Below, one piece after another: positions 3,283 through 11,595 of a stretch of DNA of 11,617 nucleotides. How positions within the stretch are numbered: the stretch's first letter is position 1; every line of letters begins with the position of its first letter. The notes beneath the pieces were generated by a model that did no database searches, was not told the DNA's origin, and was given only the letters and a program-made list of their open reading frames with translations. The stretch is from Planctomycetota bacterium (GTDB taxonomy: Bacteria > Planctomycetota > PUPC01 > DSUN01), in the NCBI GenBank assembly GCA_016872875.1, contig VGYW01000270.1, positions 1-11,617 of the forward strand. The letters are read 5' to 3'. Position numbers and translations under genes: made by a program.

Positions 3283-3310
3283 ATTATAGTTACGCCCGAA
3301 GTCCTGTCAA
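3283..3310 (-). promoter_or_regulatory. Consensus sigma-70 promoter of the rnfE-rnfA operon
   Basis: On the minus strand TTGACA (3305-3310) and TATAAT (3283-3288) are separated by 16 bp; both hexamers match the consensus exactly. The expected transcription start is near 3276, leaving a short leader of about 30 nt before GTG 3246. The -35 hexamer contains the uvrA stop codon (TGA, 3307-3309), so the operon can be transcribed independently of uvrA although it follows on the same strand. Confidence 0.82.
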
Positions 3311-6264
3311 GTCCATTCGGCGGGATGAAGGTAGCGGGCGAGGACCTGGCCAGTGTAGGAGGCGGGGTCGGCGGCGACGGACTCGGGGGGGCCTTGGGCG
3401 ACGATGCGGCCGCCCGCGTCGCCTCCCTCGGGACCGAGGTCAATGATCCAGTCGGCACACTTGATCACGTCGGGGTTGTGCTCGATGACCAGAAGCGTGT
3501 TGCCGCGGTCGGCCAGGCGGTGCAACACGTCGAGGAGGCGCGAGATGTCGGCGAAGTGCAACCCGGTGGTCGGCTCGTCGAGAATGTAGAGGGTGTTGCC
3601 GGTGGCGACCTTGGCGAGCTCGGTGGAGAGCTTGACTCGCTGCGCCTCGCCGCCGGAGAGGGTGGTGGAGGACTGGCCGAGGGCCATGTAGTCGAGCCCG
3701 ACGTCGTGGAGGGTCTGGAGGATGCGCTTGACGCGGGGGAAGGGGCTGAAGAAGGTGAGTGCTTCGGCGATCTGCATGTCGAGCACGTCGGCGATGGAGC
3801 GGCCGCGGTAGCGGATGTCGAGCGTCTCGCGGTTGTAGCGGCGGCCGCGGCAGGCCTCGCAGGTCACGTAGATGTCGGGCAGGAAGTGCATCTCGATCCG
3901 CTTGGTGCCCTGGCCTTCGCAGGCTTCGCAGCGGCCGCCCTTGACGTTGAAGCTGAAGCGCCCGGGGGAGTAGCCGCGGACCTTCGCGTCCTTGAGCGAC
4001 GCGAAGATGCGGCGGATGTCGTCGAACACCCCCGTGTAGGTGGCGGGGTTGGAGCGTGGGGTGCGGCCGATGGGGGACTGGTCAATGATGATCACTTTGT
4101 CAATCAGCTCCACGCCCTCCAGGGCGCGGTGGTCGCCGGGCTTGGTGCGGCTGGCGTAGAAGTGGCGCATCAGGGCGCGGTGGAGGATGTCGTTGACGAG
4201 CGTGCTCTTGCCGGAGCCGCTGACGCCGGTGACGCAGACGATGCCGCCGAGTGGGATCGCGGCGTCAATGGCCTTGAGGTTGTTGGCGGCGGCGCCGCGG
4301 ACGACGATTGCCCTGGCCGGCGACACGGGGCGGCGGGCCGCCGGGGTGGGAATGGCCAGGCGGCCCGCCAGATACTTGCCCGTGAGGGAGGCCGGGGCCG
4401 CGAGGATGTCGTAGAGCGTGCCCTCGGCCACCACGTGGCCGCCCTGCTCGCCAGCGCCCGGCCCGAGGTCAATGATGTAGTCGGCGCTCCGAATCGTCTG
4501 CTCGTCGTGCTCGACGACGATGACGGTGTTGCCTAGGCCCTGGAGGCGGCGGAGCGTGGCTATCAGGCGGGCGTTGTCGCGCTGGTGCAGCCCGATCGTC
4601 GGCTCGTCGAGGACGTAGCAGACGCCGACGAGGCCAGAGCCGACCTGGGTTGCGAGGCGGATGCGTTGGGCCTCGCCGCCCGACAGGCTCCCGCTCGGAC
4701 GGTCGAGCGTGAGGTAGCCGATCCCGACGTCGATCATGAATTGGAGGCGTTGGCCTGCCTCCTTGAGGATGGGCTGAGCGATGGCCGCCTTCTCGGGGGA
4801 GAAGCGCACGCCGCTGAGGAAGCGATGGGCGTCCACAATGGAGAGCGTGGCCAGCTCGTGGATGGGCTTTCCGCCGATGGTGACGGCGCGAGCCTCTGGC
4901 CGCAGCCTGGCCCCCTTGCACGCCGTGCAGGGCAGCTCGCTCATGTAGCCCATCAGGCGGGCCTTCAGCGAATCGCTCTCGGTCTTGCGGAAGCGCTCGG
5001 CCAGTTCGGGGATCACGCCCTTGAACGACCCGGTGGCACAGGCATCTTGCCTGTGGCCCACAGGCGGGACGCCTGTGCCACCAGTTCCCTCTCCGGAGCC
5101 GTGGAGGAGGACGTGGCGGACGTGCGGGGGAAGCTTCTGGTAGGGGGTGGCCATCGAGACGCCGAAGTCGCGGCAGAAGCGTTCCAGGGCGCGATTGTAC
5201 CAGGAGGCGAGCAGCTCGCCGCGCCGCCAGGCGTGGATGGCGCCCTTGGCAAGGCTCAGCGACGGCTCGGGCACGATGAGGTCGGGGTCGAACTCCATGC
5301 ACGCGCCGAGGCCACTGCACGTCGTGCACGCGCCGTAGGGGCTGTTGAACGAGAAGAGCCTGGGGGCCAGCTCCTCGATGCTCACGCCGCACTCCGGGCA
5401 GCCGTAGTGCTGGCTGTAAAGCACATCATCCCAGCGGGTGGATGGTGACTTGGGAGAGGATGAATGGATGGGTGGATGGCTGGATGATTGAACGGGCGGC
5501 CGTTTTCTTCCATCCATCCATTCATCCATTCCTCCACCCATCCCCCTCGATACGACGACTAGCCCCTCGCCCAACGCGAGCGCTACCTCGATGGAATCAT
5601 GCAGCCTTGAGCGCTGCCCGGTGTCCACGGCCAGGCGGTCCACGACGGCCTCGACGGTGTGGAGCCTCCGCTTGTCGAGCTTCGGCGTCTCCTCCACCGG
5701 ATACACCTGGCCGTCCACGCGGACGCGGACGAGTCCCTCGCGCGCGATGCGGTCGAGAATCTCCTTGTGCTCGCCCTTGCGTCCGCGCACCATCGGGGCG
5801 AGGACCATGGTGCGGATGCCCTTGGGGAGCGCGAGGACGGCCTCGACGATTTGCTCGGGCGACTGCTGGCGGATTGGGCGGCCGCACAGGTGGCAGTGGG
5901 GCTCGCCCGCGCGGGCGTAGAGGAGGCGGAGGTAGTCGTAGACCTCGGTCGTCGTCGCCACGGTGGAGCGTGGGCTGGCGATGCCGGTCCGCTGCTCGAT
6001 GGAGATCGTGGGCGGCAGCCCCTCCACGCTCTCCACCTCCGGCTTCTCCATCTGTTCGAGGAACTGTCGGGCGTAGGACGACAGGCTCTCCACGTAGCGG
6101 CGCTGCCCCTCGGCGAAAATCGTGTCGAAGGCCAGCGAGCTCTTCCCCGACCCGCTCAGCCCCGTTATGACCACCAGCTTGTCGCGGGGGATGCGCAGGT
6201 CGAGGCGTTTGAGGTTGTGCGCCGCCGCGCCCTTGATGACGATGCACTTGTCGTTGCCTTGCAT
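3307..6264 (-). CDS. uvrA: UvrABC excinuclease subunit A, with two in-frame repeat insertions
   Basis: UvrA is the damage-sensing ABC ATPase of nucleotide excision repair. The 985 residues contain the whole family layout: Walker A GLSGSGKSS (35-43), zinc ligands C289/C292/C313/C316, signature LSGGE (527-531), Walker B VLDEP (551-555), second Walker A GVSGSGKST (680-688), second zinc module C779/C782/C802/C805, LSGGE (869-873) and ILDEP (894-898). ATG 6264 is chosen because the protein then begins just before IKGAAAHNLKRLDL and because the in-frame ATG at 6381 lies upstream of the -10 box. Two stretches are foreign to the family: residues about 241-277, just before the first zinc ligands, and residues 395-411, in the variable segment before GSFKGVIPEL. 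Both are repeat-derived and keep the frame, and all catalytic motifs remain, so the protein is probably functional. No clear terminator follows it. Confidence 0.98.
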   Translation of the reverse strand: MQGNDKCIVIKGAAAHNLKRLDLRIPRDKLVVITGLSGSGKSSLAFDTIFAEGQRRYVESLSSYARQFLEQMEKPEVESVEGLPPTISIEQRTGIASPRSTVATTTEVYDYLRLLYARAGEPHCHLCGRPIRQQSPEQIVEAVLALPKGIRTMVLAPMVRGRKGEHKEILDRIAREGLVRVRVDGQVYPVEETPKLDKRRLHTVEAVVDRLAVDTGQRSRLHDSIEVALALGEGLVVVSRGMGGGMDEWMDGRKRPPVQSSSHPPIHSSSPKSPSTRWDDVLYSQHYGCPECGVSIEELAPRLFSFNSPYGACTTCSGLGACMEFDPDLIVPEPSLSLAKGAIHAWRRGELLASWYNRALERFCRDFGVSMATPYQKLPPHVRHVLLHGSGEGTGGTGVPPVGHRQDACATGSFKGVIPELAERFRKTESDSLKARLMGYMSELPCTACKGARLRPEARAVTIGGKPIHELATLSIVDAHRFLSGVRFSPEKAAIAQPILKEAGQRLQFMIDVGIGYLTLDRPSGSLSGGEAQRIRLATQVGSGLVGVCYVLDEPTIGLHQRDNARLIATLRRLQGLGNTVIVVEHDEQTIRSADYIIDLGPGAGEQGGHVVAEGTLYDILAAPASLTGKYLAGRLAIPTPAARRPVSPARAIVVRGAAANNLKAIDAAIPLGGIVCVTGVSGSGKSTLVNDILHRALMRHFYASRTKPGDHRALEGVELIDKVIIIDQSPIGRTPRSNPATYTGVFDDIRRIFASLKDAKVRGYSPGRFSFNVKGGRCEACEGQGTKRIEMHFLPDIYVTCEACRGRRYNRETLDIRYRGRSIADVLDMQIAEALTFFSPFPRVKRILQTLHDVGLDYMALGQSSTTLSGGEAQRVKLSTELAKVATGNTLYILDEPTTGLHFADISRLLDVLHRLADRGNTLLVIEHNPDVIKCADWIIDLGPEGGDAGGRIVAQGPPESVAADPASYTGQVLARYLHPAEWT
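5032..5082. repeat. 51-nt palindromic element inserted in frame in uvrA
   Basis: The arms 5032-5056 and 5058-5082 pair at 22 of 25 positions around a single central base. The outer 12 bp (GGTGGCACAGGC/GCCTGTGCCACC) and the inner 8 bp (GCCTGTGG/CCACAGGC) pair perfectly. The element is exactly 17 codons and in phase, encoding GGTGVPPVGHRQDACAT as UvrA residues 395-411. I recall this peptide wording as a dispersed repeat signature in planctomycete, verrucomicrobial and cyanobacterial genomes, from memory only. Confidence 0.9.
5434..5545. repeat. TGGA-type inverted repeat inserted in frame in uvrA
   Basis: GGATGAATGGATGGGTGG (5458-5475) pairs with CCATCCATCCATTCATCC (5510-5527) at 17 of 18 positions across a 34-nt loop. 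Further GGATGG/CCATCC words extend on both outer sides (GGGTGGATGG at 5436-5445, CCACCCATCC at 5534-5543). On the minus strand it is read as Met/Trp/Asp/Gly- then Ser/Pro/His-rich residues, about 241-277 of UvrA. Exact borders cannot be set without homologues. Confidence 0.8.
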
Positions 6265-6397: not shown

Positions 6398-6475
6398 TAC
6401 CATCTGGTGAGAGGGGTACAGTGACGCATCTGCGCTGTCCCGAAGCACCCGGCAACGACGCAGCCACGCGGAAGA

Positions 6476-6558
6476 CACGGACAAACGAGTTTGTCCGTGG
6501 CACCCCCTCTTGCTTGGAGGAGAATCGTGGGTGCCACGCCCAAACTTGTTTGGGCGTG
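6476..6558. repeat. Twin hairpins of the same design upstream of uvrA
   Basis: Two perfect 11-bp stems with 2-nt loops: CACGGACAAAC/GTTTGTCCGTG (6476-6486, 6489-6499) and CACGCCCAAAC/GTTTGGGCGTG (6535-6545, 6548-6558). Both follow the plan CACG-N3-AAAC-NN-GTTT-N3-CGTG. They face each other through an outer inverted pair GGCACC/GGTGCC separated by about 30 nt. The stretch 6398-6623 between the uvrA promoter and the next ORF otherwise shows no gene. Confidence 0.8.
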
Positions 6559-6623
6559 TTCGGAGAACCGCTGTCCGCAACAGAAACCAATCCTCTCTCG
6601 TGGGAACGACTGGAGGGAAGGGC

Positions 6624-8296: not shown

Positions 8297-8459
8297 GGGT
8301 GAGGGTGCCTTCCGCCCGCCACGCAAAGAGCCTGTGAAAAAATGACACGGACCTACACGGACGGACACGGACGGACGCCCATCGCCGAGGAATCTGCCCG
8401 TCCGTGCTTGTCCGTGAGCGTCCGTGTGATTTCCTCACAAGCTCAAAGCACCCTCACCC
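8297..8459. repeat. 163-nt composite inverted repeat
   Basis: The ends GGGTGAGGGTGC (8297-8308) and GCACCCTCACCC (8448-8459) are perfectly complementary. Inside, 8328-8350 and 8422-8444 pair at 19 of 23 positions, and the core arms 8345-8374 and 8398-8427, built of CACGGAC/GTCCGTG words, pair at 24 of 30 positions around a 23-nt loop. The left arm has about 15 extra nt. No open frame of interest lies inside; the element fills the gap between the aminotransferase and oxidoreductase genes. Confidence 0.85.
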
Positions 8460-10776: not shown

Positions 10777-10857
10777 CGAGGCCAACAACTGCCTCGTCTA
10801 CCCTTGCCCTCCACCGTCCGCCCACCGCCCACTGTCTACCGTCCACTGCCCTCCGCC

Positions 10858-10936
10858 TCACTCCGTCCAATCCACCTTGCACCCCTGCCTCTCCAGCTCC
10901 TCCACCACCTTCAGCGACTCCGCGGTGAGTTGGTTC
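10858..10936 (-). pseudogene. C-terminal coding segment, copy A of a 76-nt direct repeat
   Basis: 10861-10936 matches 11419-11494 at 68 of 76 positions. On the minus strand it reads NQLTAESLKVVEELERQG, continuing CKVDWTE and stop at 10858. A TAG lies in frame 13 codons upstream of the shared part, so no complete gene remains; the segment looks like the tail of a lost gene. I do not recognise the family. The ORF6N promoter lies just beyond it on the other strand. Between 10777 and 10857 I see only C/T-rich low-complexity sequence. Confidence 0.55.
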
Positions 10937-11348: not shown

Positions 11349-11380
11349 CCCCGAACACCCAACACCGAACACCGATAACC
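11349..11380. repeat. 32-nt direct repeat, copy 2
   Basis: It matches 10266-10297 at 30 of 32 positions and begins 14 nt after the stop of the ORF6N remnant. A C/T-rich tract (11381-11415, words CTGCCATCTGCC) follows, as after copy 1. Confidence 0.8.
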
Positions 11381-11415
11381 CTTCCTCGACTGCCATCTGC
11401 CTCCTGCCGACTGGT

Positions 11416-11595
11416 CTACTCCGTCCAATTCACCTTGCACCCCTGCCTCTCCACCTCCTCGGCCACCTTCAGCCACTCCGCCGTGAGCTGCTTCCTCGCC
11501 GGAGGCCAGAACTCTATCAGGTCAAGCAAAAAGTAGAAAATTGAGGCTTGACCCCGCCGTCCCCGCCGCCGCCCCGCCGCCTCGGGCTTGCTCAT
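11416..11595 (-). CDS. Small hypothetical protein, 59 residues, unrecognised
   Basis: ATG 11595 opens 59 residues: an Arg/Gly-rich start (MSKPEAAGRRRGRRG), a hydrophobic middle (SIFYFLLDLIEFW) and a charged helical end (QLTAEWLKVAEEVERQG, then CKVNWTE). The end is shared with the decayed copy at 10858-10936, including the stop position. The hydrophobic middle is encoded by an AT-rich inverted repeat (11520-11553), so the original gene was probably longer or different upstream and was joined to this tail through repeat insertion. No good ribosome site is visible. It may be a gene remnant rather than an expressed protein; function unknown. Confidence 0.35.
   Translation of the reverse strand: MSKPEAAGRRRGRRGQASIFYFLLDLIEFWPPARKQLTAEWLKVAEEVERQGCKVNWTE
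11520..11553. repeat. AT-rich inverted repeat GGTCAAGC...GCTTGACC
   Basis: GGTCAAGC (11520-11527) pairs perfectly with GCTTGACC (11546-11553). The 18-nt loop (AAAAAGTAGAAAATTGAG) is strongly AT-rich against a GC-rich background, which marks it as inserted DNA. Confidence 0.78.

Follow-up and report, generated by a model that had tools for sequence, protein, structure and literature searches.

Repetitive extragenic palindromic (REP) sequences have been found inside uvrA before: the main-text account of the GTAG superfamily describes doubly decorated uvrA genes in Opitutus terrae and Thioalkalivibrio and suggests that hits in repair genes are more than chance events (Di Nocera et al. 2013, PMC3733652). 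The same account reports that GTGG is a mutated tag in most O. terrae GTAG-20 elements, and it equates two Rickettsia palindromic elements (RPEs), RPE-4 and RPE-6, with CGTC-tagged REPs; therefore, RPEs and REPs can be considered kin in a broad sense. Here we describe a 51-nt palindrome located inside the uvrA gene of a planctomycete, in an 11,617-nt stretch of DNA (contig VGYW01000270.1 of assembly GCA_016872875.1; this whole stretch is referred to as the window). The palindrome consists of two GTGG-tagged REP units arranged head to head. The best explanation of its presence, and in our judgment a likely one, is the insertion of a REP doublet forming a hairpin (REPIN) into uvrA followed by selection for tolerated loop peptides.

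The palindrome, GGTGGCACAGGCATCTTGCCTGTGG-C-CCACAGGCGGGACGCCTGTGCCACC at positions 5032-5082, pairs at 22 of 25 positions around a single central base and lies in phase with uvrA as exactly 17 codons, as had been noticed in a previous sequence-only reading of the window. These codons specify residues 395-411 of the UvrA protein P0001, GGTGVPPVGHRQDACAT, within the Pfam UvrA DNA-binding domain. Each arm of the palindrome is a separate hairpin, ACAGGC-N5-GCCTGT, at 5038-5054 and 5060-5076 (on the forward strand ACAGGC-ATCTT-GCCTGT followed by ACAGGC-GGGAC-GCCTGT), and these are the only two exact matches to this motif across the window. The predicted folding energy of the element was -43 kcal/mol for RNA (z -7.15) and -24.6 for DNA (z -7.42), values that were equaled by none of 200 dinucleotide shuffles in either case. 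A search of a plasmid collection with the element and its flanks produced no matches. The features of the locus are listed in Table 1.

Table 1. Features of the uvrA locus in window coordinates.
Feature	Position	Strand	Remarks
Head-to-head REP dimer (REPIN-like), 51 nt	5032..5082		Minus-strand reading is UvrA residues 395-411
REP unit 1: GGTGGC head, ACAGGC-ATCTT-GCCTGT hairpin, G	5032..5055	+	uvrA reading HRQDACAT; reverse unit relative to the coding strand
REP unit 2: GGTGGC head, ACAGGC-GTCCC-GCCTGT hairpin, G	5059..5082	-	uvrA reading GGTGVPPV; forward unit, in the family's intragenic frame
uvrA, 985 aa, P0001, carrier of the element	3307..6264	-	
Second in-frame palindromic insert, GGATGAATGGATGG / CCATCCATTCATCC arms, different repeat family	5440..5535	-	Residues 244-275; common to G001 uvrA

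The six closest UvrA proteins in the database, P0002 to P0007 (82-87% identity), all lack residues 395-411. The anchored segment that includes them is 41 residues long in P0001, 25 in P0003-P0007 and 21 in P0002, and its modal length is 29 (94 of 114 aligned UvrAs). The insert is also absent from the uvrA of a related lake planctomycete known from a metagenome-assembled genome (MAG), G001, the DNA of which is 88% identical and could be aligned without gaps up to window position 5025. The alignment restarted at 5098 in one run (72 window nucleotides opposite 12 of G001) and at 5091 in a second run with larger words (65 opposite 6). In 9gxk, the best solved UvrA, the corresponding segment has a similar length and a different sequence. 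Among other planctomycete UvrAs, indels recur at position 363 of P0003 and likewise at position 244. An AlphaFold model of P0001 built from an alignment of 40 sequences had a mean predicted local distance difference test (pLDDT) score of 82.6, with runs below 50 at residues 1-4, 245-274, 393-410, 791-798 and 983-985. The second and third of these runs are the two inserts of Table 1, and the model predicts both to be disordered. These results agree with the earlier description of a palindromic repeat that is in frame within a variable UvrA loop and is RPE-like but of another family. Among the other homologues, P0010, P0019 and P0035 are very long UvrA-like proteins of 1617-1644 aa, and contig C154 of genome G131 contains a 2259-aa open frame with two UvrA matches (L272, L278).

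A strict dimer pattern matched three stretches in the genome_contigs collection, all of them from a single genome, G001. The genome-wide copy counts were made in G001 as a related genome, a MAG of unstated completeness, and the whole genome includes 94 exact cores of all types, with none in the reversed control. Our G001 sample consisted of 69 stretches (299,728 bases, uvrA contig included) holding 91 of the 94 cores; the three left out are near contig ends. Eighty of the 91 form 58 clusters and have the structure GGTGGC-ACAGGC-loop-GCCTGT-G, where the loop consensus is NTCYN. The other 11 come from a second family with a GTAG tag, and their 11 clusters were excluded from the GTGG analysis. 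One locus, L083, was removed because it appeared to duplicate L060, leaving 57 clusters. The unit, with a 6-bp stem and a 5-nt loop whose ends can often pair, is within the range of known REPs (stem of 5-13 bp, small loop), as is its abundance in G001, and its tag reads GGTGGC/GTGG in the family profile in place of the GTAG of the superfamily. Inverted pairs with the heads outside, the arrangement of REPINs, were found 15 times in the G001 stretches, one 53-nt pair being an apparent duplicate. Their lengths were 50 (2), 51 (2), 53 (7), 57 (1), 59 (2) and 68 (1) nt, and the commonest form, 7 of the 15, has a 7-nt spacer. Seven more pairs have the heads inside. Across the phylum, 37 of the 392 genomes searched have a relaxed unit and the reversed control gave 0 in every genome, the richest in units being G166 (104), G111 (98), G174 (85), G001 (73), G319 (57) and G277 (40). 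The exact core was present in 5 of the 294 genomes of a phylum sample, and within the class of G001 only G001 itself, one of nine genomes, has the strict GTGG unit. An ordinary diverged segment with no copies elsewhere, the finding that would have spoken against a mobile repeat, is contradicted by these cores and by the absence of the segment in relatives.

To locate the clusters with respect to genes, a cluster was called intragenic when coding flanks on both sides were in one continuous frame according to a codon model trained on the G001 stretches. By this test 27 of the 57 clusters were intragenic, compared to 215 of 353 random points from the same stretches, so that any depletion of the element in G001 genes is mild at most (Fisher p 0.06). 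The figure for 30 other planctomycete genomes was 10 of 118 (Fisher p 1e-8 vs G001), in a rough comparison that relied on less training DNA, shorter flanks and, for each genome, only the places listed first, with G166 left out. The mostly intergenic location typical of REPs was seen in the 30 sampled genomes and not in G001. The location in G001 is not taken to exclude membership among the REPs because intragenic REPs are already part of the published picture. A Pfam scan of 50 of the 58 spanning frames (L062, L091, L093, L095, L096, L077, L083 and L088 were left out) put the element inside, immediately before or between domains in 13 frames. The hosts were a glycosyltransferase, a CxxCxxCC protein, a sigma-54 activator, an FGE-sulfatase protein, a kinase, two radical-SAM proteins, a MutS-domain-V protein, a D-Ala-D-Ala-ligase/GNAT protein, a GH123 protein, a sulfatase, an AMP-binding enzyme and CarA. 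In three other cases, SHMT, MraW and CpsB/CapC, the element is at the 3' end of the gene. No protein similarity was found among the 27 intragenic loci, and one pair shares a 39-nt match.

The intragenic copies of G001 are restricted in their reading frame. Taking one exact forward unit per cluster, all 19 of 19 at the 27 loci are read in the GGT-GGC-ACA-GGC frame, which encodes GGTGxxPV (p 9e-10 against an expectation of one-third). The result was stable over six thresholds, from 24/24 down to 14/14. The window uvrA element is one additional case, and five of six intragenic forward units from other genomes are also in this frame. The context of insertion was rejected as the source of the bias: GGTGGC occurrences outside REPs in 137 confident open reading frames use the GGT-GGC frame in only 20 of 140 cases (14%) and the G-GTG-GC frame in 104. 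The peptides of the frequent frames are rich in Gly, Thr, Pro and Val, and those of the rare frames in Cys, Trp, His or hydrophobic residues. The simplest reading of the frame restriction would be purifying selection acting on the encoded peptide. The earlier proposal that the repeat is selected to be translatable is thus supported only in part, by the 19 of 19 frames, while two of the signs considered for it did not hold. Length is not a sign of selection, since dimers of 50-68 nt are not generally multiples of three. Stop avoidance was rejected as well: the uvrA element has no stop in the frame used, as noted before, nor in any of the six frames, but 2073 of 8030 51-mers sampled from the G001 stretches are equally open. 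No report of a REP reading-frame bias or of linker replacement (see below) was found in the literature searched, supplementary lists excluded, so that they may have been noticed earlier; the element peptide and core strings did not occur in that literature either. As family traits, both the reading of forward units in one frame and the replacement of linkers look new.

In two host proteins, the REP peptide takes the place of native sequence. In the TIGR03960 radical-SAM protein (L065, P0121) it occupies the position of the relatives' native linker, and the anchored segment has 46 residues compared to 45 in 114 of 118 relatives. P0123 (80% identity to P0121) has two tandem dimers in the matching linker and in matching frames, and the linker of P0122 (88% identity) has no dimer. 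In CarA, the peptide was detected in the interdomain linker of 5 of 120 listed proteins (four by pattern and P0251 by eye); the linker segment has 60 residues in G001 and a mode of 55 (97/119), and its REP loop residues vary between species in the manner of REP loop variants. The CarA proteins P0242, P0243, P0244 and P0251, 74-85% identical, have a common REP-derived interdomain linker. Therefore, a translated REP can persist through species divergence. The native linker was either trimmed after insertion or replaced by a recombination-like step.

If REPIN insertion and selection are the origin of the uvrA insert, the 51-nt element would be a short, non-autonomous, mobile palindrome that entered the gene in the window's planctomycete after the split from G001, unless G001 lost its copy. 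The point of entry would be a length-variable loop of the DNA-binding domain, where the 17 added residues may persist as a disordered, solvent-exposed loop without affecting the ATPase core. Gene-borne copies would then survive mainly when the frame is kept and the peptide is rich in Gly, Thr, Pro and Val (GGTGxxPV, TGxxPVPP). For the uvrA insert itself, neutral tolerance is taken as the default. The mobilizer could plausibly be a REP-associated tyrosine transposase (RAYT) of the HUH type. Among the 19 Y1_Tnp matches of G001, eight proteins were scanned; four matched IS200 above the cut-off and four had REP_Tyr_transpos as their best match.

Several observations weigh against this explanation. 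The four RAYT-like proteins scored 48.9-59.7, under the 80-bit cut-off of the family, and no exact GTGG core was found within 1.5 kb of the Y1_Tnp loci at the 12 of 19 examined. The uvrA element has no flanking direct repeat (the flanks are GACCC and AGTTC, compared by eye, with no empty allele of identical flanks available for comparison), and a target-site duplication like that of a miniature inverted-repeat transposable element (MITE) was not observed. Reverse units use all three frames (TGxxPVPP 12, HRxxACAT 4, QAxxLCH 3). When mutated units are added, one more forward unit agrees with the single frame and the CarA unit is in another frame, the same one as in its relatives; one of the six intragenic forward units of other genomes also departs. 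Finally, a peptide replacing a native linker, as in the radical-SAM protein and CarA, is not expected from simple insertion.

Some of these points would be accounted for if REPs spread without a transposase, by recombination, gene conversion or replication template switching between hairpins, with dimers replacing native segments. We consider this a possible alternative, although not a probable one. The near-constant length of the replaced linkers, the tandem dimers within one linker of P0123, the species-dependent loop residues at the CarA site and the lack of GTGG cores near the 12 Y1_Tnp loci agree with it. However, the dimers are at 27 unrelated intragenic loci with no common flanks other than the 39-nt match, and insertion with later trimming of the old linker yields the same pattern. 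A separate and rather unlikely reading is that GTGG-REPs are the lineage's source of ready-made protein linkers, in which case the repeat would be selected for readability as a flexible peptide and would replace the native loops of housekeeping proteins and the linkers between their domains. In the 53-nt dimer both halves are in tolerated frames (GGTGxxPV ... TGxxPVPP), and one radical-SAM linker site has been taken by the REP peptide in two lineages. It is very improbable that the hairpin was retained for a regulatory function in uvrA mRNA or DNA, such as ribosome or polymerase pausing. Its RNA fold is very stable, but the stability is equal in all frames and therefore leaves the frame restriction unexplained, the hairpin is missing from the uvrA of close relatives, and similar elements are found in many unrelated genes. 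The length of the UvrA loop does vary, but an ordinary diverged loop that is palindromic by chance has a negligible probability in view of the fold z of about -7, the 94 exact cores of the related genome G001 (none in the reversed control), and the relatives without the segment.

The second insert in the same UvrA comes from the GGATGAATGGATGG/CCATCCATTCATCC palindrome family, which has 220 matches in G001 with at most one mismatch (reversed control, 0). This insert is probably older than that at residues 395-411 because the G001 uvrA has the same insert. Each of the two inserts lies at a recurrent indel site of UvrA, and this placement favors tolerance over targeting. Preferential targeting of uvrA was not supported, which goes against the published suggestion on repair genes (PMC3733652): 19 other genomes with related units were searched and 18 REP-bearing genomes matched, with no exact relaxed unit inside the gene at 26 uvrA loci, a count in which some loci are parts of the same gene and decayed copies would be missed. 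G365 has one unit that overlaps with a uvrA match at the 3' end of that match, close to the end of a contig. The P0081 UvrA has a 35-aa insert (ESGSGIRDSGRNDKE...) at the loop of the second insert that resembles another translated repeat.

Other repeats were observed in the window and in the compared genomes. The window has more long inverted repeats, apparently from other repeat families, at 270-433, 6475-6559 and 8328-8444, and a 125-nt direct repeat (75% identity) near its right end, at 10812-10936 and 11370-11494. In G001, the IS200-like genes of L097, L101 and L102 are bordered by other hairpin arrays at near-regular spacing, including CCACGGGC-GTGA-GCCCGTGG and CCGGCGGC-TTAC-GCCGCCGG. 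In G111, contig C14 (L247) has a GTGGGACAGGCGTCCCGCCTGT unit in runs with a spacing of about 120-130 nt.

REPs are usually treated as extragenic, and G001 is a genome with about half of its clusters inside genes. With its forward units in a single frame, it amounts to a natural experiment on the peptide insertions that proteins tolerate. The question of why DNA-repair genes like uvrA bear palindromic inserts becomes more testable.

The G001 family resembles the GTAG-superfamily REPs in its short palindrome, an unpaired 5' tag that here reads GTGG, head-to-head dimers and copies inside open reading frames, the closest likeness being O. terrae GTAG-20, as judged from its description and not from a comparison of sequences (PMC3733652). 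The window UvrA with its two inserts likewise resembles the doubly decorated genes of O. terrae and Thioalkalivibrio. In contrast, the superfamily is described as mostly intergenic, and the frame bias and linker replacement of the G001 family are not given in the main-text account of that work (PMC3733652). REPINs are also inverted REP doublets that form one hairpin and behave as a mobile unit (Bertels and Rainey 2011, PMC3116915). They are described there as extragenic and RAYT-linked, whereas the G001 family is largely intragenic, without a RAYT link at the 12 loci examined. RPEs are palindromes that reside in open reading frames and leave the frame intact, located in solvent-exposed regions of proteins according to their descriptions (PMC3767692, PMC2229807), and the uvrA element is inserted in frame in the same way. 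However, RPEs are 100-150 bp long and rickettsial (Rickettsia or Wolbachia), and the GC-rich element of the window measures 51 nt and comes from a planctomycete. The sequence-only reading had likened the element to RPEs while placing it in a different family; the RPE-like action stands, and the kinship is better assigned to REP head-to-head dimers (REPINs), of which copies inside uvrA have been published (PMC3733652). The uvrA element is a REP dimer of an already known kind that works like the Rickettsia elements and is outside their family.

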